From Diplosphaera chodatii (taxonomy: Eukaryota > Chlorophyta > Trebouxiophyceae > Prasiolales > Stichococcaceae), in assembly GCA_032358165.1 (NCBI GenBank), contig JAALGY010000015.1, positions 1,736,001-1,800,000 of the forward strand: a stretch of DNA of 64,000 nt, given 5' to 3'. Below are positions 2,953-53,552 of the stretch, piece by piece. The position numbers and the translations under genes are program-made. The stretch's first letter is position 1; the number at the start of each line of letters is the position of its first letter. The notes under the pieces are model-generated. The model had not been told where the DNA came from. It worked only from the letters and a program-made list of their open reading frames with translations, and made no database searches.

Positions 2953-3125
2953 GGAGGTGCGTGTAACCCAGTCTGGGTGGTCGATGTGGTCCCGCTGAGC
3001 CGTGCGGTGCTGCTGGGCCTCGGTGATGACGGCATGCTCGGCGGCCTCGACGTGAGCGTAGCCTGGGGCGAACCAGCGAGGGATGGCTGTGGGCTGCGTG
3101 GTGGCCAAGGTGATGCGGCCTTGCT

Positions 3126-6784: not shown

Positions 6785-6891
6785 GTTTTTACAAAGGGTT
6801 TTTACAAAGGGCGTCCAGACCAGAACCAAGCTCAAGAACGAGGCTCTGCGGCACAATGCGGCCTCTCACGTGCGAACATGAGGGCGGCTGA
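6785..6891 (-). mobile_element. C-element 3' fragment shared by all LINE-B units
   Basis: About 107 bp of C-element 3' end with an atypical tail (two repeats of a TTTTTACAAAGGG block). It interrupts the LINE-B frame right after the peptide HLPAPAVAFT. The same insertion is at 11,139-11,245, 16,074-16,180 and 19,562-19,668, so it predates the tandem amplification. Confidence 0.88.
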
Positions 6892-11138: not shown

Positions 11139-11245
11139 GTTTTTACAAAGGGTTTTTACAAAGGGCGTCCAGACCAGAACCAAGCTCAAGAACGAGGCTC
11201 TGCGGCACAATGCGGCCTCTCACGTGCGAACATGAGGGCGGCTGA
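11139..11245 (-). mobile_element. C-element 3' fragment (shared insertion)
   Basis: Unit b copy of the insertion described at 6,785-6,891. Confidence 0.88.
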
Positions 11246-12059
11246 GTGAAGGCGACGGCGGGTGCCGGCAGATGAGGCGTGAGGGTGTAGTTGACGGCCT
11301 CGAGCGCTAGCCGCATGGTGGCATCAAGGGAGGCACGGATGACGGCAAGGTCCCCGCGTGCGATGGCAGCGAACTGGGGGTCGCCCTCGATGGCTGCCCG
11401 CAAGTCGTCAAGGGACCAGAGGCCAAGGGATGCAGCTCCGATGAGGTCGGCGTCGTGGGCAATAGGGTTAGCGATGGCACGCTGGCTGAAGAACAGGCGA
11501 TCTCGCATGATGAGGCGGTGCGTATGCTGCTGCTCAGGGTCCAGCTTGCGCCCAATCCCGATGCGGTGAGCAGCCGCAACGCCGTCGCGCAGGCGTGGCG
11601 GGAGCGATGGCACAGTGGCGATGTCGAGAGTGGATGCCATGATGGCAGGTGCGAGGCCCCAACGGTGAAGGGCTCGGGCTGGCGCGTGGGTGTGGGCAAT
11701 GGAGGATGCCGGAGCTCGCATGAGGTGAAAGCCGTGAATGGACTTCCACACAGTTGGCGTCGGCTGGAACAGGCGGAACGCTCGCTTCGCTGCCAGGGCG
11801 GTGGCGAAGAGCTCAAGGGAGGGGGCGCCAGCGCCACCAGCTCGTCGGGAGAGGCCGCACACAAGTCGCTTCGGGTTGCAGTTGGCGGAGAGGGGGTCGG
11901 TGTTGTAGCGATTGCGACTGGTGTAGGAGTAGATGAGGGTGTTGAGCTTCGCCAGTTGGGTGGCTGTGAGGGAGTCGAAGCTGAGGAGGTGCACCAGCTG
12001 CGACTGCAGGTTCTGCTTGCCGACGTACGCCCGTCCAAAGAAGGAGATGGCGTGCTTGG

Positions 12060-12081
12060 AGGGTGGGGTGGGTTGGTCCCA
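12060..12081. repeat. 22-bp junction filler
   Basis: Same 22-bp block as at 700-721, between units b and c. Confidence 0.85.
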
Positions 12082-12220
12082 TAGATGTAGATAGATGTAG
12101 ATGAGGGTGTGGGGCCACCATGGTGGACAGCACAGTGGGCGTCCCAGGCCTTCTGTAGGTAGGTGACCCGAAGCCGGGTCCACAGCTCAAGGTCTAGGCG
12201 GCCAGGGTGCCAGGCAGTGG

Positions 12221-12452
12221 ATGGAATGGATAGCGGTAAGGGAAGTGCAAATAGCGATGGAAAAGGACCTTTGACCGGAAGGCTGTTTGTGTATTGCGTT
12301 TTTCAACGACTTATATACACAAACCATGGAGGGCAGATTGCCGAAGCAACCACTTGCATAGGGTGGGGTGGGTTGGTCCCACACGGAACTAGACCCGAAA
12401 CTTCCGCCACCGCCAGGGATCGAACCCGGTCCCTGAACGGTGTCCAATGAAT
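12221..12452 (-). mobile_element. SINE-T copy private to unit c
   Basis: Minus-oriented copy inserted in the LINE-B C-terminal region; the empty site reads CAGTGGGGTCGCC at 7,860. Flanking duplication is at most GG, so it is unclear whether a normal target-site duplication was made. Confidence 0.88.
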
Positions 12453-21998: not shown

Positions 21999-22137
21999 AT
22001 TTGACATTTGACATTGATTACATACTGGTGGTGGGCCATTTTGGCCTAGCCACAGGCTCTGGCGGAATAACCCAGAGCAACATGCACAACGAGTCGTGTC
22101 CGAAACCGTTCACTCCCCGCTGACAGGATGGTTCCAC

Positions 22138-25100
22138 TCAAGCCCGGTTGGATGTACACCCCTCCAACTCCGCACAATGATCATGACAAACCCGCAAAAA
22201 GGCTGCCAGTTGCCCGGCATCTTGCTGCATAAAGTCCGCCACTGAGGTGATGTCGCTGTCCTCAAACAGCTCAGAATGCTGCACCCTCTGATCTACTAGA
22301 GCTGGACAACCCCAGACCATATGCGCCTCATCATCCACCACGCCGCAGCTACACCGCTGACACAGCCGCTCTGCCCGCGGCAGACGCTGCCACCTCCCTG
22401 TTTCCACCCCCAGCATGTGACTGCCCATCCGAAACTGTGCTAACCGCCGACGACCGGTCTTGGAGGCGACTGCCTGCAAGTAGCCGGCCAGCTGGTAGTT
22501 GTCACCGTTCACAGGGCCCCTGACTCCCAGCCACTCACGCACTTTGCGCAGGTCGCTGCCATTCACAGCATCGAATGTGCGGCGCTGCAGGTGTGCACTG
22601 ACAACCGAAGTGTCAATGCGCTGCGGCACGCCGTCAACGATGGGTGACATGAAGTGCAGGAACGAGCACACCTGGGCAGCCCAGCATGCTGAGCTGGTCT
22701 TGCTGCGCCCCGGCCGGGTGGCCAGAGCACAGTTCTCCAGGAATGCCTGCTTGGTGAGGCGTGTGTCCGGCATCGCGACCAGCCGATTCCAGAACCGGCA
22801 GATGGCCAGCGTTGCCGTGTGTGCCACCGGGAATCGCCCAAGCTCCCCCAACACCGCCACGTTGGGAGTGCCTGTACGCACTCCAAGAACAGACCGAAGA
22901 AACTTCCGATGGACAAGCTCACAAGTGTCCATGCCACTACCGCACAGCGCCCCCGGTCCCCATGTTTCGACACCATAAAGCATAACAGGACGTACTAGTG
23001 CATCGAACAAGTGCAGCTGCAGTGCTGGGTCATGCAAGCTCAGGTCATGGCAACGATGCTGCAATGCAAGTGCGGCGCGCTGGGCGGAGGCCGCTCTGCC
23101 GATGCTAGCGGCAGCAAAATAACTACGACTGGAGATGTCAACCCCCAAATATGTAAACGAGTCCAGCACTTCGATGGGAGCATGCATGTAGGTGAGAACC
23201 GGTGGTGCCGCAGCCTGGGCTGCGTACACCACGACCTTAGTCTTCTTCACGTTGACGGTGAGGCGCCAGCGTTTGCAGTACGACTCCAGCAGGTCGAGCT
23301 GCGCCTGCAGGCCGCGTACGGATGTGGACACCAGGTCCAGATCATCTGCATAGAAGAGGGCAGGTGCCTGCACACCACACAGGGTGGGCAGGTCCAGGTC
23401 CGCGCCGGCAGCCTCCAGCTCCGCTTGGAAATCGTCAATGTAAATCCCGAAAAGGGTTGGAGATAGTGGACATCCCTGCTTAACCCCCAGAGTGCTCTGA
23501 AATGTGTCGGACATTCCCCCCTCAAACTGCAGTGCCATGGGCACATCAGCATACAGTGCCTGCACGCCCCTCAGAAACTCCCCATGCACCCCAATCCGCT
23601 GCAGCTTCTCCCAAAGCAAATCACGAGGTACAGTGTCGTATGCTTTCTTGAAATCGACAAAGCAAGAGTATAGAGGCTGCTTATCTGCCTTGGCCTTCTC
23701 AATGAGGGTGCGAACGACGAAGGTCTGATCGGTGGTGCGGTGGTCCTTGCGGAAGCCCGCTTGTCCGCGTGCGCGCAGCTGGTGCTGCTCGGTCCACCTC
23801 ATAAGCTTTTCGTTAAGCATGCAAGCATACAGCTTTGCCAATAAAGAGCCAACAGCAATGCCACGGTAATTACCCGGATCGGATGTGTCGCCCCCCTTGT
23901 GAATCGGCGTGATGCCGCACAGAGCCCAGCCCCTTGGCAACGCTGCCACCCTTTGACAAGCGTTAAAAACAGATGCAAGACAAGGTGCAAGCTGCGCCGC
24001 TGCAACAGATAAAGCATCCAATTTGAGCAGGCCCACCGTTGCTTTGCCTCCGCGCAGGGCTCCTATAGCCTGTTGCACGGCGCCGGCTGTGAAGGGCGAG
24101 TTGAGCTCGCTCCCGTCGGCAAAAGGTGGCGCAGCACCACTACCCGAGGTACCTGCAGTGCTTGATGAAACTGTGGGGGCATCCAGCAGTTTCCGGAAGG
24201 AGTCAAGCATCACATCATCTGCTATGGGACACGCCCGCTTCTTAGCAGGTTTGAACTTTTGCCAGAACTTTTTGGAGTTGGTTGATCGAGCCAGTTCAGT
24301 GAGGGCAAGAGCCTGACTGCGGGTCCACTGGCGCTGTGTGCGGCGTAGCAGGTGCTGGTACTGCTGGCGGAGCGCACGAGCAGCCGGTGACTGCGGGTCG
24401 CGCCGCGCGGCTTGCCGCGCTGCGCGGCGTCCGCGGGCCAGGTCAGCATCCCACCAGCGAGGCACAGCGTTGCGGTCCCGCCGCCGCCCCTTGGCGGCCG
24501 GCGCCGTTGCAGCCACCTCAGCCTGCGTGGTCTCAATGAGCTGATCGAACTGCATGCCCACAGCATGCATGTCATCGGGTACCTGGGCGGCATCTGCTGC
24601 CGCTGCAATGTCGACCAGTTGGGCTGCCGCATCAGGCTGCTGCAGGCGCTGCTGCCACACTTCCAGCTGCGCTGCGCCGAGGCGCAGGGGCTGCTGGGTC
24701 GTGGGCTGCTGCGGTTGCTGCTGCTGATGGCGGCGGCGCTGGCGACGTGGGAGCGGCTGCTGAGCGGCGGCGGTCCTCTTGATGAGCAGATGCAAGGCTG
24801 CATGGTCCGACTCAGGAGCGGGGAGTACTGTTAGGGAATGAATCAAAGGGAATGCATCAGCACTTGCAAGCACATAGTCAATCAGGCTGCTGCCCACCTG
24901 ACTTTGGCTAACAAAAGTGACCTGTCCCTCCTCATCTCCTGAGACACGACCGTTAGCAATCCTGACGGATGTCTCAACACACATGTCAAGCAGAGCCCTG
25001 CCCCACCTGTTGGGCCGCTCCCTGCTGTCGCGGCTGTGCCGCTGTGACTGCACAGGAGGGGCGGTGGAGGGCAGGAACTCCTCTGTGACAGGGTGATCGA

Positions 25101-25596
25101 CAGATCCCGGAAAGTCCGGGCAGGTGCTGGTGCGTGCGTTCAAGTCTCCAACAACAAACACATGCCCCATGCGGCAGGTGGCGCTCACCTCCTCACGTAA
25201 CGCCTCCCAGACCGCAGGGCCCTTGCCATCAAAGGATGGGCTTCCCTCGGGTGGTATGTAGCATGGAATCATGTAAGCATCCTCCTCCTGACCGGCAGCC
25301 TTGTCAAACCTCAAAACAGCATAGCAGTTTTGGGGTCCAGTTGACAAGTGTGTCACCGATGATGCAAGCTTGTCGGCGACGTAGACAGCGAGGCCGCCAC
25401 GTGCACCGCCACGCTGCTGACGCCGGCTCCGCGGCAGGTGTAGGACGGATGTGAAGCCGTCCAGCTCCGGCGCGTCGGTCCCCTCCCGCGCCCACGTCTC
25501 GCTGAAGGCCAGCACGTCGAAGTCAGCCGCCTTGATGACCTGCGATAGCGCAGATGCATCTCTGGTCAGCCACCCCTGGACGTTCAGGCTCAGCAC
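22138..25596 (-). CDS. LINE-A ORF2: endonuclease-reverse transcriptase
   Basis: 1,152 codons, uninterrupted. It starts directly in an APE-type endonuclease (about residues 1-270: LSLNVQGW, LAFSETW, FVVGDLNAR near 149, SDHAALHLL near 264). A linker is followed by the RT (about 540-810): FVDFKKAYDTV motif A near 645, GVKQGCPLSP near 703, LFYADDLDL motif C near 746. The C-terminus has a CQRCSCG...HMVWGC zinc knuckle near 1,078-1,095. The protein would nick target DNA and copy LINE-A RNA from the nick. The start is chosen because the endonuclease domain begins there and ORF1 ends 57 nt upstream. Fragments of this frame occur at 1,385, 8,391, 12,979, 32,393 and 39,140. Confidence 0.95.
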   Translation of the reverse strand: MLSLNVQGWLTRDASALSQVIKAADFDVLAFSETWAREGTDAPELDGFTSVLHLPRSRRQQRGGARGGLAVYVADKLASSVTHLSTGPQNCYAVLRFDKAAGQEEDAYMIPCYIPPEGSPSFDGKGPAVWEALREEVSATCRMGHVFVVGDLNARTSTCPDFPGSVDHPVTEEFLPSTAPPVQSQRHSRDSRERPNRWGRALLDMCVETSVRIANGRVSGDEEGQVTFVSQSQVGSSLIDYVLASADAFPLIHSLTVLPAPESDHAALHLLIKRTAAAQQPLPRRQRRRHQQQQPQQPTTQQPLRLGAAQLEVWQQRLQQPDAAAQLVDIAAAADAAQVPDDMHAVGMQFDQLIETTQAEVAATAPAAKGRRRDRNAVPRWWDADLARGRRAARQAARRDPQSPAARALRQQYQHLLRRTQRQWTRSQALALTELARSTNSKKFWQKFKPAKKRACPIADDVMLDSFRKLLDAPTVSSSTAGTSGSGAAPPFADGSELNSPFTAGAVQQAIGALRGGKATVGLLKLDALSVAAAQLAPCLASVFNACQRVAALPRGWALCGITPIHKGGDTSDPGNYRGIAVGSLLAKLYACMLNEKLMRWTEQHQLRARGQAGFRKDHRTTDQTFVVRTLIEKAKADKQPLYSCFVDFKKAYDTVPRDLLWEKLQRIGVHGEFLRGVQALYADVPMALQFEGGMSDTFQSTLGVKQGCPLSPTLFGIYIDDFQAELEAAGADLDLPTLCGVQAPALFYADDLDLVSTSVRGLQAQLDLLESYCKRWRLTVNVKKTKVVVYAAQAAAPPVLTYMHAPIEVLDSFTYLGVDISSRSYFAAASIGRAASAQRAALALQHRCHDLSLHDPALQLHLFDALVRPVMLYGVETWGPGALCGSGMDTCELVHRKFLRSVLGVRTGTPNVAVLGELGRFPVAHTATLAICRFWNRLVAMPDTRLTKQAFLENCALATRPGRSKTSSACWAAQVCSFLHFMSPIVDGVPQRIDTSVVSAHLQRRTFDAVNGSDLRKVREWLGVRGPVNGDNYQLAGYLQAVASKTGRRRLAQFRMGSHMLGVETGRWQRLPRAERLCQRCSCGVVDDEAHMVWGCPALVDQRVQHSELFEDSDITSVADFMQQDAGQLAAFLRVCHDHCAELEGCTSNRA

Positions 25597-25653
25597 AGAC
25601 AGGGCGCTGTTAGGGGACCGGATTGCGCCGGGCGCAGCCCGGCCCCAACACCC

Positions 25654-27069
25654 CTAGCAGACATGGTTGGGGGTGGGTTTGGGGGTGGCTGGCGCCTTTG
25701 CTGGAGAGGGTGATGTTCCCTCAGCCAAAGTGGGGCCACCAGGTGATGTGTGAGAAGTGGGCTCAACGGGCAGCACAGCAAAGCGTGATGCAATGCCAAG
25801 GGGAGCAACAGCAGGGTGAGGGCCAAGAGCGCTTGGCCGCCGCTGCCGGCGCGGCGCGAGGTGATGCTGTGCAAATTGCATAGCATCTGCGGCTGCGCGG
25901 CGTGCGTTCGCCACCGGAGCTGCGTCCTGGGCTGCATGGTGCTGGCTCCTGCGCAGCTGTGCCGCTGCGTCCCGACGCTGCGGTGCCACACTCTCAAAAA
26001 CTGAAACACCGCAAGTGCGGGGAAGGCGCGCTTTCGCGCTGCACATCCTGCGCACAAAAGCACCATCGTCAATGCTGACAACAGCCAGACCGGTCTTCTG
26101 CTTGCTGACACGCATCACGGTGATGTGCTGTGCAGCATCTTGCAAGCAAAGCTTGCTGGTGCAGAAACCCTGTACTGCCGCTGCGGCAACATCGCTGCTG
26201 CTGCCTGCTGCAAAATCCAAGCCGCTGAAGACCCATGCTGCTGAACCAGTGCTGCTGCTGCGTGCTGGGAGCCGCGGCTGCTGTTTTGGATCAATGCTGG
26301 GCCGGCTGGTTGCTGTTGGCTGCTGTGGCAATGCTGCTGCTGATGCCATTGCTGATGTTGCAGGCTGGCTGCTGGGAGCTGCTGGCGCGGGTGCTGCATG
26401 CTGCTCTGAAGCTTCATGCTGCCTGTCCGGTGCCATCTGCTGCTCCTGGCTGCTGCTGTTGGGCTGTGGCTGCTGCACATGTATGACAAGCTTGACTGGC
26501 TGGCATTGCTGCTGCAGTGCCGCTTGCTGATGTGCTGCTGCCTCAAGCTTCAGCTGCTGCACCTCGGCCTCAAGAGACGCAATCCTGCGCAAGTATGGCG
26601 CAATGGCAGCGTTGGACGAGGGCTGTGGGACTGCACAGCCTGCACTGGAATCACCCTGAGCAGTCTGGGCAGTCACGTGATCCAAGTCAGCATCATCTGC
26701 AGTTGCATGCACGCATGCAAGTCCACGCAGGGGGCCCCTGGGTGGCCGCTGCTGAGCAGCAGGCGCCGTATAGGCCTCGCTGATGGGTGCCGCGTTGTGC
26801 GTGCAGGACTGCTGACTCAAATCGGCGCTGGAGTCCGACACCGAAAACTCTGCAAGTGCAGCGTCCGCAATGCCGTCCATTGGCTCCATGACGGCGTGTA
26901 GCTGCCGACGAACCGTTTCTGCGTTGGCGCCCCTGCGCACAGACACGTTGTACCGTTTGGCGATCTTCCGGAGTGCAGCCAGGTCACTCAGTGACGCAAC
27001 CGTCGCCCAGTCCATCGCCGCATCTGTTGAGGAGACAACGTCAGAGAACGAACGCGTGCAGATCGTCAT
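25654..27069 (-). CDS. LINE-A ORF1: putative nucleic-acid-binding protein
   Basis: 471 codons, uninterrupted. The N-terminal ~75 residues look like a small helical (SAP-like) domain (LRKIAKRYNVSVRRG). The middle is Gln/Ala/Ser-rich with a short coiled-coil candidate (LEAEVQQLKLEAAAHQQ). The C-terminal half has a compact domain (WVFSGLDF...ITVMRVSKQKTGLAVVSI...FVRRMCSAK) with the spacing of an RRM-like fold as in L1-type ORF1 proteins. No CCHC finger is visible. The likely role is binding the LINE RNA. Assignment rests on position upstream of ORF2 and these weak domain cues. Confidence 0.8.
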   Translation of the reverse strand: MTICTRSFSDVVSSTDAAMDWATVASLSDLAALRKIAKRYNVSVRRGANAETVRRQLHAVMEPMDGIADAALAEFSVSDSSADLSQQSCTHNAAPISEAYTAPAAQQRPPRGPLRGLACVHATADDADLDHVTAQTAQGDSSAGCAVPQPSSNAAIAPYLRRIASLEAEVQQLKLEAAAHQQAALQQQCQPVKLVIHVQQPQPNSSSQEQQMAPDRQHEASEQHAAPAPAAPSSQPATSAMASAAALPQQPTATSRPSIDPKQQPRLPARSSSTGSAAWVFSGLDFAAGSSSDVAAAAVQGFCTSKLCLQDAAQHITVMRVSKQKTGLAVVSIDDGAFVRRMCSAKARLPRTCGVSVFESVAPQRRDAAAQLRRSQHHAAQDAAPVANARRAAADAMQFAQHHLAPRRQRRPSALGPHPAVAPLGIASRFAVLPVEPTSHTSPGGPTLAEGTSPSPAKAPATPKPTPNHVC

Positions 27070-27344
27070 GTTATGATGTATAGGAGGTAGATGGATGGTT
27101 GCAGCTTGTGATGCAGGTGCTGGGTGTGTGTGACGCGATATGAGCGGTTGGAGTCAGTATGGGACGCCTCAAACGAGGTGCAATGGCCTCAAATGAGGTG
27201 CGGTGGCTGCGAAATTGCAGCAGAAGGATGATGTGTGTGAGATGAGTCTGTTTGCAAGGTTTGCAAGCAGGTTGAGGGGTGTAGAGCGCAGGGTTGCGTG
27301 GTTTGACGGGGTTGGTTGGTTGGGTGCGGTTGGCCTCCTGTGAG

Positions 27345-27410
27345 CGCGCTGCCGGACACCGGGCAGCGCGGGACACCGGGCAGCGCGGGACACCGGACAC
27401 CGGGCAGCGC
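27345..27410 (-). repeat. Short tandem repeat in the LINE-A 5' UTR
   Basis: About four partial copies of a 16-18 bp unit (GGACACCGGGCAGCGC on the plus strand) at the very 5' end of LINE-A. Tandem 5' UTR repeats are common in LINE promoters; a promoter role here is inferred. Confidence 0.7.
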
Positions 27411-27443
27411 TATCCATCCATCCATGGTGTCGCTAAAGTGGCG

Positions 27444-28441
27444 TGGGTTCACACCTCACCTGCCAGCACCTGCCGTCGCCTTCACCTTCACCTTCGGTCC
27501 CATCCTGGACTCCCACGGCCGCTCACCGTCACCTACCCCCTCACACCTCACCTGCCAGCACCCGCCGTCGCCTTCGCCTTCACCTTCGGTCCCATCCTGG
27601 ACTCCCACCGCCGCTCACCTTCACCTACACCCTCACACCTCACTTGCCAGCACCCGCCGTCGCCTTCACCTTCACCTTCGGTCCCGTCCTGGACTCCCAC
27701 CGCCACTCATCCTCACCTATACGCCCGTACCTCATCTGCCCAGTCAGCACTGGGCCAAGATCAAGAACAAGAGCAAGAGCAAGACCAAGACCTTAGCAGC
27801 ATGACAACACCTAGCAGCGGCCACCCGCGGAGCCCGCGCGGACGGGAGCACCTGCCTCAGAAGACCCTGGTGCCAGGCGTTGTGCATATCGGACAGCTTG
27901 CGGCGTCAGCCGCCAGCCCTCTGTTGTTTGCCAGCGCCAGCCCTCAGTCCCTTTGGGTTTGGTTGCTTTCACCAGCATGCAGGGCGCCTCGCGGCGTATC
28001 CGGTCCCAGCGGGCCCAGAGCTCGGCGTACTTGTACGCAACCGGTCCCTGCATGTCTGCGCGGGGTTTTCTGGGTTTACCCGCGGGTGCCGTGGCACGTG
28101 GACAGACAGACGTTTGGACATTTCTAGGATGGTAGACCCGCAGCGGTGCGACTCAGCCGCGTGTGCGTGGCATTGCTGCCGCCGCCGCTAGGTCCCCGCA
28201 CTTGTACGACCATTAGGTAGCCTTCCTCATCGGGACTATTGCCTTTCGCTGGTCTCATGGACCCTGCATTCCCTTGTGGTTTCAGTGTCCTCCATCGACA
28301 TATTTCGAACATGACGTTTTGATGACATACTCAGCCGCCCTCATGTTCACACGTGAGAAGCCGCATTGTGCCGCAGAGCCTCGTTCTTGAGCTTGGTTCT
28401 GGTCTGGACGCCCTTTGTAAAAAACAAACAAACAAACAAAC
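27444..28441 (+). mobile_element. C-element, VNTR subfamily, copy 1 (998 bp)
   Basis: Inserted in LINE-B with a perfect 8-bp duplication AAGTGGCG (27,436-27,443 and 28,442-28,449). Structure 5' to 3': about three 92-bp VNTR monomers (27,453-27,720), a purine-rich AAGAACAAGAGC linker, a unique body of about 640 bp, and a (CAAA)n tail. No protein-coding potential is recognised; a 277-codon frame across the VNTR is explained by its base composition. Confidence 0.9.
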
Positions 28442-29705
28442 AAGTGGCGGGGGTCGCAGCGAGCGTGGAAGTAGTGAGTGGGCTTCTCGAAGAACATGAG
28501 CTCCAACGCCCGGGCGCGATCGAGTGCAAGCTGGGCGTGGCGGTCGTGGTGGGCTTGCAGGGCGTCGGCAGCGGCGTGGAAGGCGGCGCGTGCGGCGTCG
28601 CGAGCATTGTCTGTCGCAGCGATGGGCAGCTGAGAAGCTGCAAAGGCGACGGCCGCCTGCAGGTGCCGAAGCTCCAGGCGTCTGCGACGTGTGTCGGCGG
28701 CAGTGCGCCGCTGGGCGAGCAGGCGGATGCAGGAAAGCATGTCCTCCAACAGCCCTTGCGGGTCGGTGTCGCGCAACTCCGGGGGGGCGGCGCCGCCGTC
28801 GGGAGAGGGCGAGGCGTGCCGGCTTGCGGCGGCCACGAGGCGGAGGAAGTCGGCGGCCCGGCGCGATGAGTCTTGCTGATGGAGCCTGTCGGCCATAAGG
28901 CGGTCGAGGGCATTTTCCAGCTCAGTGACGAAGTCGGCGTCTGCGAGGAGGGGGAGGGGGAAGCGCCATGGTGGGCGAGCCCGCAGCACGGAACCGGGGA
29001 GCGTGAAGGCGAAGGTGACGCCGCGGTGGTCGCTGTGGAAGTCGTCAACGATGGTGGCGTGTGGTTGATGGTGGAGGAGGGCCTCAGCGACTAGCCACTT
29101 GTCGAGTCGAGAGCGCCGTGGTCGGCGTTGCGAGAGACGAAAGAGAAGTCGGTGGCAGGGTGGGGGTGGCAGTGCCGCCAGGCATCAGCCAAGCCGGCGG
29201 AGGTGGCGAGGTGTTGCAGCTCAGGGGCGCCGACCAGTCGACCGGATCGCTGGCTAGCGGTGGGGGTGGCATCATGGACGGTGTCGATGCAGTTGAAGTC
29301 GCCGCACAAAAGGACCGTGCGGTGGCTGTCGGCGGACGGCAGGTCTCCGGCAAGGGTGGGGATGAAGGCGAGGCGTGGGTGTTGATCGCATGGCGTGTAG
29401 GCGGTGATGACGGAGTACAGGTGACCATGGAGTGCGAAGTCGACGCGAAGTCGGCGGCCGTCGTCTGTGCTGGGGCCGACTTCGTCGACAGCAGTGCAGC
29501 CGCAGGACTCGCGGATGAGGATGGCCACCCCGGCGGTGGCGTGTCGGCGCCGTTCGCCGGGGTCAGTGGTGGCGGCGGGGCCCCGCCGCCAGAAGGACCA
29601 GCCTGGCCAGGGCTGGCCCGGGGCCGCCCCCGTTTGCGCCCACTGGTTGCCGTCGTCAGAGGCACGTTGATGTGTCTCCTGGAGGCAGATGACGTCCCAG
29701 GGCCC
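28442..29705 (-). pseudogene. LINE-B endonuclease domain and linker
   Basis: Minus-strand frames of 206 and 235 codons that continue into each other. APE endonuclease signatures: WDVICLQETH, GVAILIRE, LLCGDFNC, and DDFHSDHRGVTF spanning the join near 29,050. After that comes a helical linker (LRARPPWRFPLPLL...HYFHARCDPR) that leads into the RT at 21,766 once the nested insertions are removed. The 5' end is truncated against VNTR sequence at 29,705. Confidence 0.85.
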
Positions 29706-29958
29706 GTTCACCTACACCCTCACACCTCACCTGCCAGCACCCCCCGTCGCCTTCACCTTCACTCTTGGTCCCATTCTGGACTCCCACCGCCGCTCACTCT
29801 CAGCTACACCCTCACACTCCACCTGCCAGCGCCCGCCATCGCCTTCACCTTCACTTTCGGTCCCATCCTGGACTCCCACCACCACTCACCTTCACCTACA
29901 CCCTCACACCTCACCTGCCAGCACCCGCCGTCGCTATCACCTCCACTTTCGGTCCCAT

Positions 29959-30191
29959 TTCATTGGACACCGTTCAGGGACCGGGTTCGATCCCTGGCGG
30001 TGGCGGAAGTTTCGGGTCTAGTTCCGTGTGGGACCAACCCACCCCACCCTATGCAAGTGGTTGCTTCGGCAATCTGCCCTCCATGGTTTGTGTATATAAG
30101 TCGTTGAAAAAACGCAATACACAAACGGCCTTCCGGTCAAAGGTCCTTTTCCATCGCTATTTGCACTTCCCTTACCGCTATCCATTCCATT
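29959..30191 (+). mobile_element. SINE-T copy inside the VNTR
   Basis: Inserted between GGTCCCAT and CCATCCTGG of a VNTR monomer with a CCAT duplication (29,955-29,958 and 30,192-30,195). The 3' tail shows CCATTCCATT. Confidence 0.9.
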
Positions 30192-30905
30192 CCATCCTGG
30201 ACTCCCACCGCCACTCGCCTTCGCCTACACCCTCACACCTCACCTGCCAGCACCCGCCGTCGCCTTCACCTTCACTTTCGGTCCCATCCTGGACTCCAAC
30301 CGCCGCTCACCTTCGCCTACACCCTCACACTCACCTGCCAGCACCCGCCGTCGCCTTCCTTCACTTTCGGTCCCATCCTGGACTCCCACCGCCGCTCACC
30401 CTCACCTACACCCCCACACCTCACCTGCCAGCACCCCCCGTCGCCTTCACCTTCACCTATGGTCCCATCCTGGACTCCCACCGCCGCTCACCTTCGCCTA
30501 CACCCTCGCACCTCGCTTGCGAGCCCGCCGTCGCCTTCACCTTCACTCTCAGTCCCATCCTGGACTCCCACCACCATTCAACCTCACCTATGCGCCCGTA
30601 CCTCATCTGCCCAATCAGCACTGGGCCAAGATCAAGAACAAGAGCAAGAGCAAGACCAAGGCCTTAGTAGCATGACAACACCTAGCAGCGGCCACCCGCG
30701 GAGCCCGCGCGGATGGGAGCACCTGCCTCAGAAGACCCTGGTGCCCGGTGTTGTGCATATCGGACAGCTTGCGGCGTCAGCCGCCAGCCCTCTGTTGTTT
30801 GCCAGCGCCAGCCCTCAGTCCCTTTGGGTTTGGTTGCTTTCACCAGCATGCAGGGCGCCTCGCGGCGTATCCGGTCCCAGCGGGCCCAGAGCTCGGCGTA
30901 CTTGT

Positions 30906-31140
30906 TTGCTATCCATTCATTGGACACCGTTCAGGGACCGGGTTCGATCCCTGGCGGTGGCGGAAGTTTCGGGTCTAGTTCCGTGTGGGACCAACCCACC
31001 CCACCCTATGCAAGTGGTTGCTTCGGCAATCTGCCCTCCATGGTTTGTGTATATAAGTCGTTGAAAAACGCAATACACAAACAGCCTTCCGGTCAAAGGT
31101 CCTTTTCCATCGCTATTTGCACTTCCCTTACCGCTATCCA
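30906..31140 (+). mobile_element. SINE-T copy inside a C-element body
   Basis: A 235-bp insertion with a perfect 7-bp duplication TACTTGT (30,899-30,905 and 31,141-31,147). The empty site is at 31,951-31,957. Confidence 0.93.
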
Positions 31141-31554
31141 TACTTGTACGCAACCGGTCCCTGCATGTCTGCGCGGGGTTTTCTGGGTTTACCCGCGGGT
31201 GCCGTGGCACGTGGACAGACAGACGTGTTGACATTTCTAGAGTGATAGACCCGCAGCGGTGCGACTTCGCCGCGAGTGCGTGGCATTGCTGCCGCCGCCG
31301 CTACGTCCCCGCACTTGTACGACCATTAGGTAGCCTTCCTCATCGGGACTATTGCCTTTCGCTGGTCTCATGGGCCCTGCATTCCCTTGTGGTTTCAGTG
31401 TCCTCCATCGACATATTTCGAACATGACGTTTTGATGACACACTCAGCCGCCCTCACGTTCACACGTGAGAAGCCGCATTGTGCCGCAGAGCCTTGTTCC
31501 TGAGCTTGGTTCTGGTCTGGACGCCCTTTGTAAAAAACAAACAAACAAACAAAA

Positions 31555-32392
31555 AAAACACCTCACCTGCCAGCACCCGCCGTCGCCTTCACCTTCACTT
31601 TCGGTCCCATCCTGGACTTCCACCACCACTCACCCTCACCTATACGCCCGTACCTCATCTGCCCTGTCAGCCCTGGGCCAAGATCAAGAACAAGAGCAAG
31701 AGCAAGACCAAGACCTTAGTAGCATGACAACACCTAGCAGCGGCCACCCGCGGAGCCCGCGCGGATGGGAGCACCTGCCTCAGAAGACCCTGGTGCCCGG
31801 TGTTGTGCATATCGGACAGCTTGCGGCGTCAGCCGCCAGCCCTCTGTTGTTTGCCAGCGCCAGCCCTCAGTCCCTTTGGGTTTGGTTGCTTTCACCAGCA
31901 TGCAGGGCGCCTCGCGGCGTATCCGGTCCCAGCGGGCCCAGAGCTCGGCGTACTTGTACGCAACCGGTCCCTGCATGTCTGCGCGGGGTTTTCTGGGTTT
32001 ACCCGCGGGTGCCGTGGCACGTGGACAGACAGACGTGTTGACATTTCTAGAGTGATAGACCCGCAGCGGTGCGACTTCGCCGCGAGTGCGTGGCATTGCT
32101 GCCGCCGCCGCTAGGTCCCCGCACTTGTACGACCATTAGGTAGCCTTCCTCATCGGGACCATTAGGTAGCCTTCCTCATCGGGACTATTGCCTTTCGCTG
32201 GTCTCATGGGCCCTGCATTCCCTTGTGGTTTCAGTGTCCTCCATCGACATATTTCGAACATGACGTTTTGATGACATACTCAGCCGCCCTCACGTTCACA
32301 CGTGAGAAGCCGCATTGTGCCGCAGAGCCTTGTTCTTGAGCTTGGTTCTGGTCTGGACGCCCCTTGTAAAAAACAAACAAACAAACAAACAC
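31555..32392 (+). mobile_element. C-element, VNTR subfamily, copy 3
   Basis: Begins directly after the tail of copy 2 with a single VNTR monomer, then the body and (CAAA)n tail (32,366-32,392). It has a private ~33-bp tandem duplication around 32,150-32,185 (CATTAGGTAGCCTTCCTC twice). Confidence 0.88.
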
Positions 32393-35021
32393 CGCTTACA
32401 GTACGACTCCAGCAGGTCGAGCTGCGCCTGCAGGCCGTGTACGGATGTGGACCAGGTCCAGATCGTCTGCATAGAAGAGGGCAGGTGCCTGCACACCACA
32501 CAGGGTGGGCAGGTCCAGGTCCGCGCCGGCGGCCTCCAGCTCCGCTTGGAAATCGTCAATGTAAATCCCAAAAAGGGTTGGAGATAGTGGACATCCCTGC
32601 TTTACCCCCAGAGTGCTCTGAAATGTGTCGGACATTCCCCCCTCAAACTGCAGTGCCATGGGCACATCAGCATACAGTGCCTGCACGCCCCTCAGAAACT
32701 CCCCATGCACCCCAATCCGCTGCAGCTTCTCCCAAAGCAAATCACGAGGTACAGTGTCGTATGCTTTCTTGAAATCGACAAAGCAAGAGTACAGAGGCTG
32801 CTTATCTGCCTTGGCCTTCTCGATGAGGGTGCGAACGACGAAGGTCTGATCGGTGGTGCGGTGGTCCTTGCGGAAGCCCGCCTGTCCGCGTGCGCGCAGC
32901 TGGTGCTGCTCGGTCCACCTCATTTGTTTGTTTGTTTGTTTGTTTTTTACAAAGGGCGTCCAGACCAGAACCAAGCTCAAGAACAAGGCTCTGCGGCACA
33001 ATGCGGCTTCTCACGTGTGAACGTGAGGGCGTCCACCTCATAAGCTTTTCGTTAAGCATGCAAGCATACAGCTTTGCCAATAAAGAGCCAACAGCAATGC
33101 CACGGTAATTACCCGGATCGGATGTGTCGCCCCCCTTGTGAATCGGCGTGATGCCGCACAGAGCCCAGCCCCTTGGCAACGCTGCCACCCTTTGACAAGC
33201 GTTGAAAACAGATGCAAGACAAGGTGCAAGCTGCGCCGATGCAACAGATAAAGCATCCAACTTGAGCAGGCCCACCGTTGCTTTGCCTCCGCGCAGGGCT
33301 CCTATAGCCTGCTGCACGGCGCCGGCTGTGAAGGGCGAGTTGAGCTCGCTCCCGTCGGCAAAAGGTGGCGCAACACCACTACCCGAGGTACCTGCAGTGC
33401 TTGATGAAACTGTGGGGGCATCCAGCAGTTTCCGGAAGGAGTCAAGCATCACATCATCTGCTATGGGACACGCCCGCTTCTTAGCAAGCTTGAACTTTTG
33501 CCAGAACGTTTTGGAGTTGGTTGATCGAGCCAGTTCAGTGAGGGCAAGAGCCTGACTGCGGGTCCACTGGCGCTGGGTGCGGCGTAGCAGGTGCTGGCAC
33601 TGCTGGCGGAGCGCGCGAGCAGCCGGTGACTGCGGGTCGCGCCGCGCGGCTTGCCGCGCTGCGCGGCGTCCGCGGGCCAGGTCAGCATCCCACCAGCGAG
33701 GCACAGCGTTGCGGTCCCGCCGCCGCCCCTTGGCGGCCGGCGCCGTTGCAGCCACCTCAGCCTGCGTGGTCTCAATGAGCTGATCGAACTGCATGCCCAC
33801 AGCATGCATGTCATCGGGTACCTGGGCAGCGTCTGCTGCCGCTGCAATGTCGACCAGTTGGGCTGCGGCATCAGGCTGCTGCAGGCGCTGCTCCATACTT
33901 CCAGCTGCGCTGCGCCGAGGCGCAGGGGCTGCTGGGTCGTAGGCTGCTGCGGGTGCTGCTGCTGATGGCGGCGGCGCTGGCGACGTGGGAGCGGCTACTG
34001 AGCGGCGGCGGTCCTCTTGATGAGCAGATGCAAGGCTGCATGGTCCGACTCAGGAGCGGGGAGTACTGTTAGGGAATGAATCAAAGGGAATGCATCAGCA
34101 CTTGCAAGCACATAGTCAATCAGGTTGCTGCCCACCTGACTTTGGCTAACAAAAGTGACCTGTCCCTCCTCATCTCCTGAAACACGACCGTTAGCAATCC
34201 TGACGGATGTCTCAACACACATGTCAAGCAGAGCCCTGCCCCACCTGTTGGGCCGCTCCCTGCTGTCGCGGCTGTGCCGCTGTGACTGCACAGGACGGGC
34301 GGTGGAGGGCAGGAACTCCTCTGTGACAGGGTGATCGACAGATCCCGGAAAGTCCGGGCAGGTGCTGGTGCGTGCGTTCAGGTCTCCAACAACAAACACA
34401 TGCCCCATGCGGCAGGTGGCGCTCACCTCCTCACGTAACGCCTCCCAGACCGCAGGGCCCTTGCCATCAAAAGATGGGCTTCCCTCGGGTGGTATGTAGC
34501 ATGGAATCATGTAAGCATCCTCCTCCTGTCCGACAGCCTTGTCAAACCTCAAAACAGCATAGCAGTTTTGGGGTCCAGTTGACAAGTGTGTCACCGATGA
34601 TGCAAGCTTGTCGGCGACGTAGACAGCGAGGCCGCCACGTGCACCGCCACGCTGCTGACGCCGGCTCCGCGGCAGGTGAAGGACGGATGTGAAGCCGTCC
34701 AGCTCCGGCGCGTCGGTCCCCTCCCGCGCCCACGTCTCGCTGAAGGCCAGCACGTCGAAGTCAGCCGCCTTGATGACCTGCGATAGCGCAGATGCATCTC
34801 TGGTCAGCCACCCCTGGACGTTCAGGCTCAGCACAGACAGGGCGCTGTTAGGGGACCGGATTGCGCCGGGCGCAGCCCGGCCCCAACACCCCTAGCAGAC
34901 TTGGTTGGGGGTGGGTTTGGGGGTGGCTGGCGCCTTTGCTGGAGAGGGTGATGTGCCCTCCGCCAAAGTGGGGCCACCAGGTGATGTGTGAGAAGTGGGC
35001 TCAACAGGCAGCACAGCAAAG
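32393..35021 (-). pseudogene. LINE-A second copy, truncated at both ends
   Basis: Minus-strand LINE-A from the end of ORF1 (35,021) through the endonuclease (279 open codons, 34,834-33,995) and most of the RT, ending abruptly at 32,393 against a C-element tail. The 3' third of ORF2 and the 3' UTR are absent. Frame breaks occur near 33,890-33,995 and at the C-element insertion 32,924-33,030. Loss of the 3' end is not expected from target-primed reverse transcription, so a deletion or recombination at the C-element tail is likely. Confidence 0.88.
32924..33030 (-). mobile_element. C-element fragment in LINE-A copy 2
   Basis: A 107-bp insertion with a perfect 11-bp duplication GTCCACCTCAT (32,913-32,923 and 33,031-33,041) and a (CAAA)n tail. 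Confidence 0.93.
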
Positions 35022-35178
35022 ATGGGACTGAAGTGAAGGTGAAGGTGACGGCGGGTGCTGGCAGGTGAGGTGTGAGGGTGTAGGTGAAGGTGAGTGGCGG
35101 TGGGAGTCCAGGATGAGACCGAAAGTGAAGGTGAAGGCGACGGCGGGCGCTGGTAGGTGAGGTGTGGAGGGTGTAGAT
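35022..35178 (-). repeat. Inverted VNTR monomers
   Basis: About 1.7 VNTR monomers in minus orientation, directly abutting the plus-oriented VNTR that begins at about 35,183. Together they form an inverted repeat of about 150 bp arms. Confidence 0.85.
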
Positions 35179-35182
35179 CAAG

Positions 35183-36740
35183 GTGCCTCACCTGCCAGCA
35201 CCCGCCGTCGCCTTCACCTTCACTGTCGGTCCCATCCTGGACTCCCACCGCCGCTCACCTTCGCCTACACCCTCACACCTCACCTGCCAGCGCCCGCCGT
35301 CGCCTTCACCTTCACTTTTGCTCCCATCCTGGACTCCCACCGCCGCTCACTTTCACCTACACCCTCACACCTCACCTGCCAGCGCCCGCCGTCGCTATCA
35401 CCTTCACTTTCGGTCCCATCCTGGACTCCCACCGCCGCTCACCTTCGCCTACACCCTCACACTCACCTGCCAGCACCCGCCGTCGCCTTCACCTTCACTT
35501 TCGGTCCCATCCTGGACTCCCACCGCCGCTCACCTTCACCTACACCCTCACACCTCACCTGCCAGCGCCCGCCATCGCCTTCACCTTCACTTTCGGTCCC
35601 ATCCTGGACTCCCACCGCCACTCGCCTTCGCCTACACCCTCACACCTCACCTGCCAGCACCCGCCATCGCTATCACCTTCACTTTCGGTCCCATCCTGGA
35701 CTCCCACCGCCGCTCACCCTGACCTACACCCTCACACCTCACCTGCCAACACCCGCCGTCGCTATCACCTTCACTTTCGGTCCCATCCTGGACTCCCACC
35801 GCCGCTCACCTTCGCCTACACCCTCACACCTCACCTGCCAGCACCCGCCATCGCTATCACCTTCACTTTCGGTCCCATCCTGGACTCCCACCGCCGCTCA
35901 CTTTCACCTACACCCTCACACCTCGCCTGCCAGCACCCGCCGTCGCCTTCACCTTCACTTTCGGTCCCATCCTGGACTCCCACCGCCGCTCACCTTCGCC
36001 TACACCCCCACACCTCACCTGCCAGCACCCGCCGTCGCCTTCACCTTCACTTTCGGTCCCATCCTGGACTCCCACCGCCACTCGTCTTCGCCTACACCCT
36101 CACACCTCACCTGCCAGCACCCGCCATCGCTATCACCTTCACTTTCGGTCCCATCCTGGACTCCCACCGCCGCTCACCCTGACCTACACCCTCACACCTC
36201 ACCTGCCAACACCCGCCGTCGCTATCACCTTCACTTTCGGTCCCATCCTGGACTCCCACCGCCACTCGCCTTCGCCTACACCCTCACACCTCACCTGCCA
36301 GCACCCGCCATCGCTATCACCTTCACTTTCGGTCCCATCCTGGACTCCCACCGCCGCTCACTTTCACCTACACCCTCACACCTCGCCTGCCAGCACCCGC
36401 CGTCGCCTTCACCTTCACTTTCGGTCCCATCCTGGACTCCCACCGCCGCTCACCTTCGCCTACACCCCCACACCTCACCTGCCAGCACCCGCCGTCGCCT
36501 TCACCTTCACTTTCGGTCCCATCCTGGACTCCCACCGCCACTCGCCTTCGCCTACACCCTCACACCTCACCTGCCAGCACCCGCCGTCGCCTTCACCTTC
36601 ACTTTCGGTCCCATCCTGGACTCCCACCGCCGCTCACCCCCACCTACACCCTCACACCTCACCTGCCAGCACCCGCCGTCGCCTTCACCTTCACTTTCGG
36701 TCCCATCCTGGACTCCCACCACCACTCACCCTCACCTATA
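35183..36740 (+). repeat. 92-bp VNTR, about 17 monomers
   Basis: The landmark CCCATCCTGG recurs from 35,231 to 36,702 at intervals of 91-92 bp, giving about 17 monomers. Because 92 is not a multiple of three, all three frames stay open for long stretches (up to 660 codons); these are not genes. Variants (CGCTCACCTTCGCC, CACTCGCCTTCGCC, CGCTCACCCTGACC) repeat in blocks, suggesting expansion by multi-monomer duplication: the stretch around 35,640-36,060 recurs around 36,100-36,540. Confidence 0.92.
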
Positions 36741-37480
36741 CGCCCGTACCTCATCTGCCCTGTCAGCCCTGGGCCAAGATCAAGAACAAGAGCAAGAGCA
36801 AGACCAAGACCTTAGTAGCATGGCAACACCTAGCAGCGGCCACCCGCGGAGCCCGCGCGGATGGGAGCACCTGCCTCAGAAGACCCTGGTGCCCGGTGTT
36901 GTGCATATCGGACAGCTTGCGGCGTCAGCCGCCAGCCCTCTGTTGTTTGCCAGCGCCAGCCCTCAGTCCCTTTGGGTTTGGTTGCTTTCACCAGCATGCA
37001 GGGCGCCTCGCGGCGTATCCGGTCCCAGCGGGCCCAGAGCTCGGCGTACTTGTACGCAACCGGTCCCTGCATGTCTGCGCGGGGTTTTCTGGGTTTACCC
37101 GCGGGTGCCGTGGCACGTGGACAGACAGACGTTTCGACATTTCTAGAGTGATAGACCCGCAGCGGTGCGACTTCGCCGCGAGTGCGTGGCATTGCTGCCG
37201 CCGCCGCTAGGTCCCCGCACTTGTACGACCATTAGGTAGCCTTCCTCATCGGGACTATTGCCTTTCGCTGGTCTCATGGGCCCTGCATTCCCTTGTGGTT
37301 TCAGTGTCCTCCATCGACATATTTCGAACATGACGTTTTGATGACATACTCAGCCGCCCTCACGTTCACACGTGAGAAGCCGCATTGTGCCGCAGAGCCT
37401 TGTTCTTGAGCTTGGTTCTGGTCTGGACGCCCTTTGTAAAAAACAAACAAACAAACAAACAAACAAACAAACAAACACCA
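36741..37480 (+). mobile_element. C-element, VNTR subfamily, copy 4 (body and tail)
   Basis: Body and (CAAA)n tail that belong to the VNTR at 35,183-36,740, making this the longest copy (about 2.3 kb). The tail has nine or so CAAA repeats. Confidence 0.88.
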
Positions 37481-37525
37481 CCAGCCACACCACCCTCAGC
37501 CTGCCACCTGTTGCACCCTGATCTT

Positions 37526-38080
37526 TTGTTTGTTTGTTTGTTTGTTTGTTTTTTATACAAAGGGCGTCCAGACCAGAACCAAGCTCAAGAACAAGGCTCT
37601 GCGGCACAATGCGGCGTCTCACGTGTGAACGTGAGGGCGGCTGAGTATGTCATCAAAACGTCATGTTCGAAATATGTCGATGGAGGACACTGAAACCACA
37701 AGGGAATGCAGGGTCCATGAGACCAGCGAAAGGCAATAGTCCCGATGAGGAAGGCTACCTAATGGTCGTACAAGTGCGGGGACCTAGCGGCGGCGGCAGC
37801 AATGCCACGCACTCGCGGCTAAGTCGCACCGCTGCGGGTCTATCACTCTAGAAATGTCAAAACGTCTGTCTGTCCACGTGCCACGGCACCCGCGGGTAAA
37901 CCCAGAAAACCCCGCGCAGACATGCAGGGACCGGCTGCATACAAGTACGCCGAGCTCTGGGCCCGCTGGGACCGGCGGTGGGCCCCGCGAGGCGCCCTAC
38001 ATGCTGGTGAAAGCAACCAAACCCAAAAGGACTGAGGGCTGGCGCTGGCAAACAACAGAGGGCTGGCGCTCGCGCTTCTT
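37526..38080 (-). mobile_element. C-element, VNTR subfamily, copy 5 (5'-truncated)
   Basis: Minus-oriented body with the tail at 37,526-37,556, lying tail-to-tail with copy 4 across about 45 bp. It ends at about 38,080 within the body, where plus-oriented subfamily A sequence begins. Confidence 0.85.
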
Positions 38081-52063: not shown

Positions 52064-53379
52064 ATGAACCGAATATTTGGGAAGCGGCAAGAGAAAGCCC
52101 CACCTCCGACGCTGAATGACACAACCGCGCGGCTGACCTCGCGGGGGGATACGTGAGTTACCCTGCTGCATCTGGAAATGACCCGTGCCGTGCGTGCCTG
52201 CGTCAGAATGAATAGGCTCACACATGCATGCTCGCTGCGGTTCCAGGTTGGACGACAAGCTCAGGAAGCTCGATGAGCAGCTCATCAAGCACAGGGAAGC
52301 CATCAAGCGCAGCCGGCCGGGGCCCGCGCAGGAGGCAGCAAAGCGCAGGGCGCTGAATGTGTGTGCAGCTCCCCGAGGCCCTGCTTGCAAGGAGCACCCC
52401 ATCTTTGAGCATGTTGCATGCGCGCCGCTGCCGTGGAAACAGGTTGTCGCGTTGATGCTGAGGCCACTGAACAGCCTGCACTGTATCGCAGGTGCTCAAG
52501 CAGAAACGACTGTATGAGAACCAGCGGGACCAGCTGTACAACCAGCAGTTCAACGTGGAGCAGACCTCCTTCATGATGGAGAACGTGCAGGACTCCGTGC
52601 AGACGGTGCAGGCGATGAAGGCAGCAGGCGAGTGGGGCTGCAGGCACCGCTGTCGTGCTCCTGCCACGTGTACGCTGCTGCTCTCTTAGGATGGCAGGTT
52701 GTCAGCATCCGCACCAAAACCTGCAGGGAAGGAGCTCCGCAGCGCCTTCAGACGAGACGAGCTCAATATCAGCAACATCGACAAGCTGCAGGACGACATG
52801 GCCGATATCATGGTGTGCTCCATACTGTCATCCAGGGCCTTCGTGTCCAAGGGACACGGGCAGTTGTGACCGGTCAGCCTCACCAGACACCCACCGTCAA
52901 AGTACCCTGCAGTGCGGTGCATGCTGTGATGCGAGCGTGCGGCGCCTCCTGCCTGCCGCAGGACATGCACAACGACATCCAGGACGTGCTGGGGCAGAAC
53001 TACGGGGTGCCCGACGACGTGGACGAGGACGAGCTGCTGGGGGAGCTGGACGCGCTGGAGGCGGACATGGCCTTCCAGGCGGAGGAGACCGCCGCGCAGG
53101 GCGCCGTGCCCAGCTACCTGCAGGCGCGCCCCGCTCCGCAGTCGCCACTGCTTGCTGAGCCGCGCTGCGTCGGACCCTTGGCTTGCTGCTGGCCTGACGA
53201 CTGCCCACGATCCACCGGATCTCACTGCGGGAACGCAAACCTTCTCAGGAATTTCCCTTGGCTGCAACCGCGGTTGCCCACCATGTGCGCAGGAACCAGA
53301 GCTGCCAGAGGCACCGCACGAGCAGCAGCCCCTGGCGGAGGGCGAGCTGAGCCTCCCTGCCGTGCCGCAGCGCAGCTGA
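52064..53379 (+). CDS. VPS60: ESCRT-III protein VPS60 / CHMP5
   Basis: Six exons: 52,064-52,152; 52,247-52,358; 52,492-52,627; 52,727-52,812; 52,962-53,123; 53,293-53,379. They sum to 672 nt (223 residues; CHMP5 is about 219). It begins MNRIFGKRQEKAPPPTLND with the basic first helix of Snf7-family proteins, then LDDKLRKLDEQLIKHREAIK, VLKQKRLYENQRDQLYNQQ, ISNIDKLQDDMADIM, GVPDDVDEDELLGELDALEA and a C-terminal ELSLPAVPQ motif. VPS60 acts with VTA1/LIP5 to stimulate VPS4 in endosomal membrane remodelling. Two introns appear to have GC donors: 52,628 (CAG|GCGAGT, well supported) and 53,124 (CAG|GCGCGC, less sure because the frame also stays open for a while). Confidence 0.95.
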
Positions 53380-53552
53380 GCAGCTGCATGTGTGAAGCAG
53401 TAGTCATTGACATGAGCTGCGTCGGCGCTCTGCCATGTACGGTAGGGGGTCACAGCCATGTGCCCGTATGAGTGGGCAAGCGCAACCATTGCATTGCATT
53501 TACAAAGCTGACGGTAGCATGAGAATGCACGAACGAGCCTGCCGCAAATGTG

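Follow-up and report, generated by a model that had tools for sequence, protein, structure and literature searches.

Background

Among described retroelements, those closest to the subject of this report are Zepp and ZeppL of Coccomyxa and Chlamydomonas, L1-type long interspersed nuclear elements (LINEs) that form one cluster per chromosome, at the putative centromere (PMC3446292, PMC8226300, PMC11005252); SVA and LAVA of hominoids, which are non-autonomous composites containing a variable number of tandem repeats (VNTR), LAVA being dense in gibbon centromeres (PMC4432496, PMC5857280); and Ogre of pea, a long terminal repeat (LTR) retrotransposon whose 3' untranslated region (UTR) carries hypervariable tandem repeats that are the source of the satellite PisTR-A (PMC9659126). 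The subject itself is LINE-C, an element of Diplosphaera chodatii, and in particular four VNTR-bearing units in a stretch of 64,000 nucleotides (“the window”, positions 1736001-1800000 of contig C13, JAALGY010000015.1, in a genome of 85.6 Mb and 55 contigs). An earlier interpretation, made by a model from the letters alone (the sequence-only reading), took these units for a non-autonomous SVA-like composite of independent algal origin. From sequence comparison they are very probably 5'-truncated insertions of LINE-C, an autonomous L1-type LINE, with the VNTR, the module that follows it and the (CAAA)n tail making up its 3' UTR.

LINE-C resembles Zepp and ZeppL in being of L1 type, in having nested and 5'-truncated copies and, among the matches listed, in lying in one interval per contig (contigs not necessarily being chromosomes). 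It differs from Zepp, here compared by description and not by sequence, in having arrays in both UTRs, a second open reading frame (ORF2) of 2,107 amino acids and a (CAAA)n tail; no VNTR is mentioned for Zepp in the portions of PMC3446292, PMC8226300 and PMC11005252 that were available. With SVA and LAVA it shares a GC-rich internal VNTR of changing length that moves with the retroposon, but those two families have in common a 5' hexamer/Alu-like region, whereas in LINE-C it is the autonomous element that has the VNTR, in its own 3' UTR. With pea Ogre it has in common that an autonomous retroelement carries tandem repeats in its 3' UTR, although Ogre is an LTR element while LINE-C is a non-LTR element found in centromere-like clusters.

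In rodent L1 the 5' UTR is monomeric, tandem promoter-side monomers lying upstream of ORF1, and the 98-bp array found ahead of ORF1 in LINE-C is similar in this respect. We know of no 3' UTR VNTR in rodent L1, and no LINE with such a VNTR is named in the open-licence literature searched, which cannot show absence in print.

The VNTR-bearing units of the window

The four units lie on the plus strand, and each consists of a VNTR followed by a purine-rich linker, a body and a (CAAA)n tail, as the sequence-only reading had it, their starts being corrected here to 27449, 29709, 31558 and 35186; the numbers of 92-bp monomers it gave (about 3, 8, 1 and 17) agree with those measured (3.2, 7.3, 1.2 and 17.1). 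Its body of ~640 bp is right as to the existence of a unit after the VNTR, but the length is ~690 bp with the linker included, and linker and body together are referred to below as the module. Tandem Repeats Finder scores for the arrays of the window reach 2,679, so that a chance origin is not an issue. Copy 1 does have a target-site duplication (TSD), but this is 13 bp long with one mismatch, the perfect 8 bp reported earlier forming its first part; both flanks are LINE-C sequence (the 3' flank by comparison, the short 5' flank by eye). A 231-bp tRNA-like short interspersed element (SINE) interrupts copy 2 in two places, once in the VNTR and once in the body. The start of copy 3 lies directly in the copy 2 tail, and its module has a 26-bp tandem duplication (32131-32189). 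The features concerned are as follows.

27436-27448, plus strand: 5' TSD of copy 1, AAGTGGCGTGGGT, matching 28442-28454 at 12 of 13 bases
27449-27740, plus strand: VNTR of copy 1, 3.2 monomers of 92 bp, read as a 5'-truncated LINE-C 3' UTR
27741-28441, plus strand: module and (CAAA)n tail of copy 1
28442-28454, plus strand: 3' TSD of copy 1, AAGTGGCGGGGGT
28442-29708, minus strand: host LINE-C piece that received copy 1 (reference LINE-C 2576-3843, endonuclease part of ORF2)
29709-29958 and 30192-30611, plus strand: VNTR of copy 2, 7.3 monomers, with a SINE between at 29960-30190
30612-31557, plus strand: module and tail of copy 2, with a second SINE at about 30906-31141
31558-32391, plus strand: copy 3, comprising 1.2 monomers (VNTR 31558-31665), module and tail
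35021-35185, minus strand: inverted VNTR piece joined to a 5'-truncated copy (33031-35021) of another LINE, LINE-A
35186-36761, plus strand: VNTR of copy 4, 17.1 monomers
36762-37477, plus strand: module and (CAAA)n tail of copy 4

Continuity of the VNTR with LINE-C

Besides the window, 200 kb from four other clusters, 15 kb of contig C12 and 2 kb more were read. In the cluster on C18, a LINE other than the LINE-A of the window runs through its endonuclease and reverse transcriptase (RT) frames straight into the 92-bp array, all on one strand. An anchor of 151 nt ending at the VNTR gave 13 matches, nine of which enter the VNTR directly and on the same strand (a number that includes the query and two tandem duplicates); of the other four, one is a short piece followed by LINE-A, one has a small deletion at the junction, and two are copies of a single nested insertion. 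With the copy on C12 added, the junction between ORF2 and VNTR is identical in 10 copies read. A query made of the final 660 bp ahead of the VNTR gave 46 matches from the best 40 of 92 candidates, 30 of them reaching query base 659 or 660, and among the matches listed this query was found at 100% identity on C8, C12, C14 and C21. The first 600 bp of a C18 LINE-C piece gave 34 matches on 12 contigs, all 31 candidates being scored. A subfamily of LINE-C, 84-86% identical (14-16% diverged), is present on C45, C46, C50 and C51; on C45 it has the same stop codon, then a SINE insertion, then the 92-bp array, of which about 9 monomers are present before LINE-A cuts it short, and since the array thus stands behind the same stop in a diverged subfamily, it is an old part of the LINE-C 3' UTR.

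These junctions bear directly on the idea of a 92-bp centromere satellite that receives insertions of LINE-C and other elements, its adjacency to ORF2 reflecting an insertion hot spot. Copies of LINE-A, SINE and LINE-C are indeed found inserted in VNTR arrays at several places, as this idea would predict, but it has to contend with the identity of the junction in 10 copies, with the array behind the stop of the diverged subfamily, and with TSDs that enclose ORF2, VNTR and module together (see below), and it is considered scarcely credible.

Structure and coding capacity of LINE-C

Taking LINE-C, then, as the owner of the array, its parts follow in the order 98-bp 5' monomers, ORF1, ORF2, stop codon, ~60 nt, 92-bp VNTR, ~690-bp module and (CAAA)n. 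An uninterrupted copy occupies C12:1-12976 (coordinates of the region read), where about 11 of the 98-bp monomers (1-1089) precede ORF1 and ORF2, the last sense codon of ORF2 ends at 9883, the array of 25 monomers spans 9944-12267, and the tail runs to 12976. A second copy, in the C18 region (72154-52571, minus strand), is complete from about 21 of the 98-bp monomers (C18:1100101-1102154) through both ORFs and 14.4 VNTR monomers to the tail, and encloses nested OTH (a further element, treated below), LINE-A and SINE insertions. The two arrays of the element thus differ in period, 98 bp on the 5' side and 92 bp on the 3' side. An apparent 5' end of LINE-C at C18:66404 was rejected: an OTH is inserted there in ORF1 (TSD CACCACATGGCC), and LINE-C continues beyond it to the 98-bp monomers.

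ORF1 is an open frame of 854 codons, the stop of which is overlapped by the start of ORF2 through ATGA; it has no Pfam match at E<=1. The single ORF2 frame contains both an APE endonuclease domain (1.5e-11) and an RVT_1 domain (7.3e-20), and its best match among solved structures is LINE-1 ORF2p (8uw3, 4.7e-33), that to R2 being 2.9e-10. The closest of the 55 database proteins listed shows 60% identity across the first 1,000 residues. Differences between ORF2 copies fall on codon positions 1, 2 and 3 in numbers of 358, 192 and 597, the N/S ratio is 0.80 compared with an expected 2.50, and 2 of 988 single-change codons show a change to stop; the codon-position differences point to purifying selection on ORF2.

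Evidence for mobility

Three insertions show coding sequence, VNTR, module and tail together inside matching ends (region coordinates in each case). That at C18 86402-89412 has a 13-bp TSD in a LINE-A target, and holds only the last 81 nt of coding sequence together with a small deletion at the ORF2-VNTR junction; that at C33 15362-2671 has a 12-bp TSD and contains at least five nested insertions; and that at C33 17824-26316 has matching ends of 10 bp, three bases of which may belong to the tail, the evidence being weaker here because the target is itself VNTR. A 20-bp match at C33:16966 was rejected as a TSD, since what lies on each side is the 3' end of a LINE-A copy. Of 24 LINE-C-type copies, 11 scored 9 or more for a TSD (with TSDs of 9-14 bp), as did five of six OTH copies, as against 7 of 400 mismatched flank pairs, a rate that is biased in that the 30 copies were hand-picked, several of them for an already visible TSD. 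The earlier claim that the VNTR travels with the element is thus upheld, TSDs enclosing it. It was also observed that two LINE-C-type insertions of different lengths, at C18:1116402 and at window 1662, lie at the same LINE-A point (AGCAGGATG..., position about 5224-5236), which is possibly a preferred target.

In the 279 kb covered there are 63 LINE-C-type 3' ends, tandem duplicates being counted separately. VNTR lies beside the module in 37 (34 identified by script and three by reading across insertions, at window 32373, C33 42079 and C8 27292); four have a 45-bp scrap of VNTR, all of these being copies of one derivative; and those without VNTR are the minority, at 22, five of them representing one repeated unit. 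At least nine ends reach into coding sequence (seven by script, plus C18:86402 and C33:15362). The 5' ends are scattered through the coding sequence, different phases of the VNTR and many points of the module, and this is the pattern of 5' truncation, not that of an element with a fixed start. Of tails with at least three CAAA units, 68 of 74 are preceded by the 3'-end motif common to LINE-C and OTH, and two of the other six by a one-base variant of it.

OTH is an element of ~1.4 kb in which no open frame exceeds 181 codons in any of the six frames. It has no VNTR, and what it has in common with LINE-C is confined to the tail and to its last ~225 bp, which are about 89% identical; of five full-length copies, four have the same first base (TTTCCGTTTTCA) and the fifth begins 2 bp later, and its TSDs (five of six copies tested) are 9-12 bp long. 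OTH is a non-autonomous partner of LINE-C and a likely parasite sharing only the tail, and because these ~225 bp, besides the tail, are all that it shares, they would be the likely recognition region. Within the terminal ~200 nt, compensatory changes occur in 2 of 53 predicted pairs, both being fixed differences between LINE-C and OTH, and so give no support for covariation.

SINEs can share the 3' tail of a partner LINE, as eel UnaSINE1 does with UnaL2. OTH resembles these in sharing only its 3' end with LINE-C, but is ~1.4 kb long.

It is against these observations that the SVA-like composite has to be judged, that is, an independent non-autonomous element of VNTR, body and tail mobilised in trans by another LINE. 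The fixed order, the variable monomer number and the TSD around copy 1 all fit it, and OTH, read as trans-mobilised, is an element of the clusters with a fixed start and the same tail. However, the junction that links the unit to LINE-C ORF2 is constant, TSDs enclose the unit together with coding sequence, its 5' ends are not fixed, and the non-autonomous element that does have a fixed start lacks the VNTR. No constant 5' domain like that of SVA (CT hexamers, Alu-like) stands ahead of the VNTR, the copies tested beginning at varied VNTR phases or in the module; the array does have a neighbour foreign to the supposed composite, though an unexpected one, in that the constant upstream neighbour, where present, is LINE-C ORF2. 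An autonomous element therefore takes the place of the composite once proposed, which is now very improbable. LINE-A, the neighbouring LINE of the window, was likewise rejected as the source of the units, because its 3' end is (TCAATG)n.

An intermediate possibility is that LINE-C owns the VNTR but that the VNTR also acts as a promoter, many of the VNTR-module copies arising from short RNAs mobilised by LINE-C proteins; were this so, it would represent a functional analogue of SVA born from the 3' UTR of a LINE. About 25 of the 63 3' ends have their 5' limit inside the VNTR, and, to judge from OTH, the last ~225 bp with the tail may be enough for mobilisation in trans. However, the VNTR 5' ends differ in monomer phase, as truncation predicts, and about half of the 25 are a few duplicated units of 0.6 monomer, so that on balance it seems unlikely that many of these copies arose in this way.

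Several points nevertheless weigh against the interpretation of the units as truncated LINE-C. A short RNA starting within the VNTR and mobilised in trans would mimic 5' truncation and could account for some of the copies. Of the 24 LINE-C-type copies, 13, including copies 2, 3 and 4 of the window, fall short of a TSD score of 9, although several of the 13 are nested or rearranged, and the derivative at window 6799-6936 has an 11-bp TSD (CCTCGAGCGCT) by eye and pattern. None of the copies read is a full-length LINE-C with a TSD around it: that on C12 runs off the start of the contig, which begins inside the 5' array, and that on C18 shows a target-site deletion instead, because its flanks derive from a single LINE-C module on the opposite strand that has lost about 62 bp. 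Finally, the estimate of selection on ORF2 counts duplicated copies more than once.

Proposed mechanism and changes in array length

Given TSDs, 5' truncation and the presence of endonuclease and RT domains, LINE-C RNA would undergo target-primed reverse transcription beginning at its 3' end, and an early stop would leave only the tail, the module and some monomers, which is what gives such copies their SVA-like look. New insertions would inherit the array length of their source. The number of monomers changes at the DNA level through unequal exchange between arrays, as seen in one case, and insertions pile up, nested in each other, in the centromere-like clusters.

The variation in VNTR length noted earlier is confirmed: ten arrays bounded by LINE-C and module have about 25, 14.4, 21.8, 17.3, 4.3, 42.4, 18.9, 26.4, 9.5 and 17 monomers. 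Three of those on C18 sit in tandem-duplicated surroundings, and the middle one (17.3 monomers) is a hybrid: its left flank matches that of the 4.3-monomer array at 100% identity (1,727 bp), its right flank matches that of the 21.8-monomer array at 99.88% (1,705 bp), and the best-matching windows within it switch from the former array to the latter at about 92,289. Joining the flanks of two arrays, with an internal switch point, it provides one case of unequal exchange within the VNTR. Monomer identity is 0.90-0.94 within arrays and 0.90-0.93 between them; as to higher-order repeats, lag identities are only weakly periodic, with small peaks at 12 (C33 array) and 5 (window copy 4).

Elsewhere on C18 (1035591-1045105 and 1102166-1112096) there are tandem arrays of a 767-bp unit (0.6 VNTR monomer, module and tail) and of a unit of about 1.83 kb having the same composition plus a LINE-A piece; these are satellite-like blocks built of the LINE-C 3' end.

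Other features of the window

The remaining features attributable to LINE-C, OTH and LINE-A in the window are listed here.

1-21766, minus strand: ORF2 and 3' coding region of LINE-C, broken by nested insertions and segmental duplications (99.4-100% identity)
1662-1626, minus strand: LINE-C 3' end without VNTR
2249-2953, minus strand: 5'-truncated OTH, TSD GGAGGTGCGTGT (2237-2248 / 2953-2964)
4651-6255, minus strand: full-length OTH with a SINE inside at 5645-5874
6799-6936, minus strand: deletion derivative joining 45 bp of VNTR to the last 95 bp of the body, TSD at 6770-6780 / 6944-6954
11290-11153, 16225-16088 and 19713-19577, minus strand: three segmental-duplication copies of that derivative
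21999-27423, minus strand: LINE-A, with ORF1 27153-25654, ORF2 25653-22138 (endonuclease and RT) and tail (TCAATG)n, the 5' limit being set by eye
32924-33031, minus strand: last 108 bp of a LINE-C 3' end inserted in LINE-A, 11-bp TSD GTCCACCTCAT (32913-32923 / 33031-33041)
37488-37524, plus strand: fragment of a 98-bp LINE-C 5' UTR monomer
37530-38068, minus strand: LINE-C 3' end without VNTR, from body position 171 to the tail

Between 1 and 20484, LINE-C segments are repeated at 99.4-100% identity (one pair, at 4.6-kb spacing, is 99.9% identical over 2,905 bp), which is recent segmental duplication; a separate “LINE-B” entertained for this part was rejected, the sequence being the 3' half of LINE-C. 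For LINE-A, 601 bp near the 3' end are 100% identical on nine contigs, that of the window included, among the matches listed, and three copies begin at nearly the same 5' point (LINE-A position 1657-1673), which is perhaps a second start site. The 231-bp SINE (terminal sequence CTATCCAT) occurs at 29960-30190, 30906-31141, 3161-3388, 3759-3982, 5645-5874 and other places in the window, its copies being mostly about 99% identical to one another (two are ~93%) and often partly doubled in tandem; it contains GGTTCGATCC, which we take to resemble a B-box, and ARAGORN found no tRNA in the window.

Clusters and the centromere question

The share of sequence made up by LINE-A, LINE-C, OTH, SINE and arrays together is 95.7% on C18 (110 kb read), 87.2% on C33 (50 kb), 95.5% on C8 (30 kb) and 99.5% on C28 (10 kb), the lower share in the window (59.8%) being due to its right part lying outside the cluster; matches to the five families stop near 39.6 kb. 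That right part may be genic, with a plus-strand open frame at 52518-53468 giving a weak Snf7 match (7e-7). Also outside the cluster, at 57843-61910, many short GCCCCTTTGTTATTGACC-like units and their reverse complements occur in both orientations.

The matches listed for LINE-C, VNTR, LINE-A and OTH fall in one interval per contig on 24 of the 55 contigs, with a total of 0.96 Mb and a longest interval of 103 kb. Each list holds the best 40 candidates, apart from that for the first 600 bp of the C18 LINE-C piece (31 of 31 scored, 12 contigs), so that absence outside the clusters applies to this query only. (TTTAGGG)n stands at the start of C18 and the end of C33, whose clusters are internal and far away, and near 1.229 Mb on C14, where the cluster is at 11-52 kb. 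This telomere repeat is of plant type and, with the Zepp-like layout, is in keeping with a green alga. Within the cluster on C21 (1850441-1850640), about seven TTTAGGG repeats are fused to a SINE fragment inside a VNTR array. In layout the clusters resemble those of Zepp, and they are putative centromeres.

A further possibility, put forward tentatively and as somewhat less than an even prospect, is that LINE-C is a centromere-restricted LINE with its own satellite: an element with arrays in both UTRs that plants its 92-bp array on many chromosomes through retrotransposition, the arrays so planted then lengthening, shortening and recombining to form satellite-like blocks. Of this, the structure of the element, its spread and a single recombination are seen in the sequence; the centromeric identity of the clusters, and any benefit conferred by the arrays, are inferred.

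Significance

What appeared to be a second origin of an SVA-like element is replaced by a simpler object, an autonomous LINE with a variable tandem array in its 3' UTR, and there is a general caution in this, namely that a LINE with an internal VNTR, once 5'-truncated, can be mistaken for a composite retroposon if judged from a short window. LINE-C also offers a natural case for studying how retroelements seed centromeric satellites, as the source element, its truncated copies, a likely parasite and recombining arrays lie adjacent to one another in a small genome. If it is true that LINE-C carries its own satellite, this would constitute a direct route by which non-homologous centromeres could come to share one satellite.

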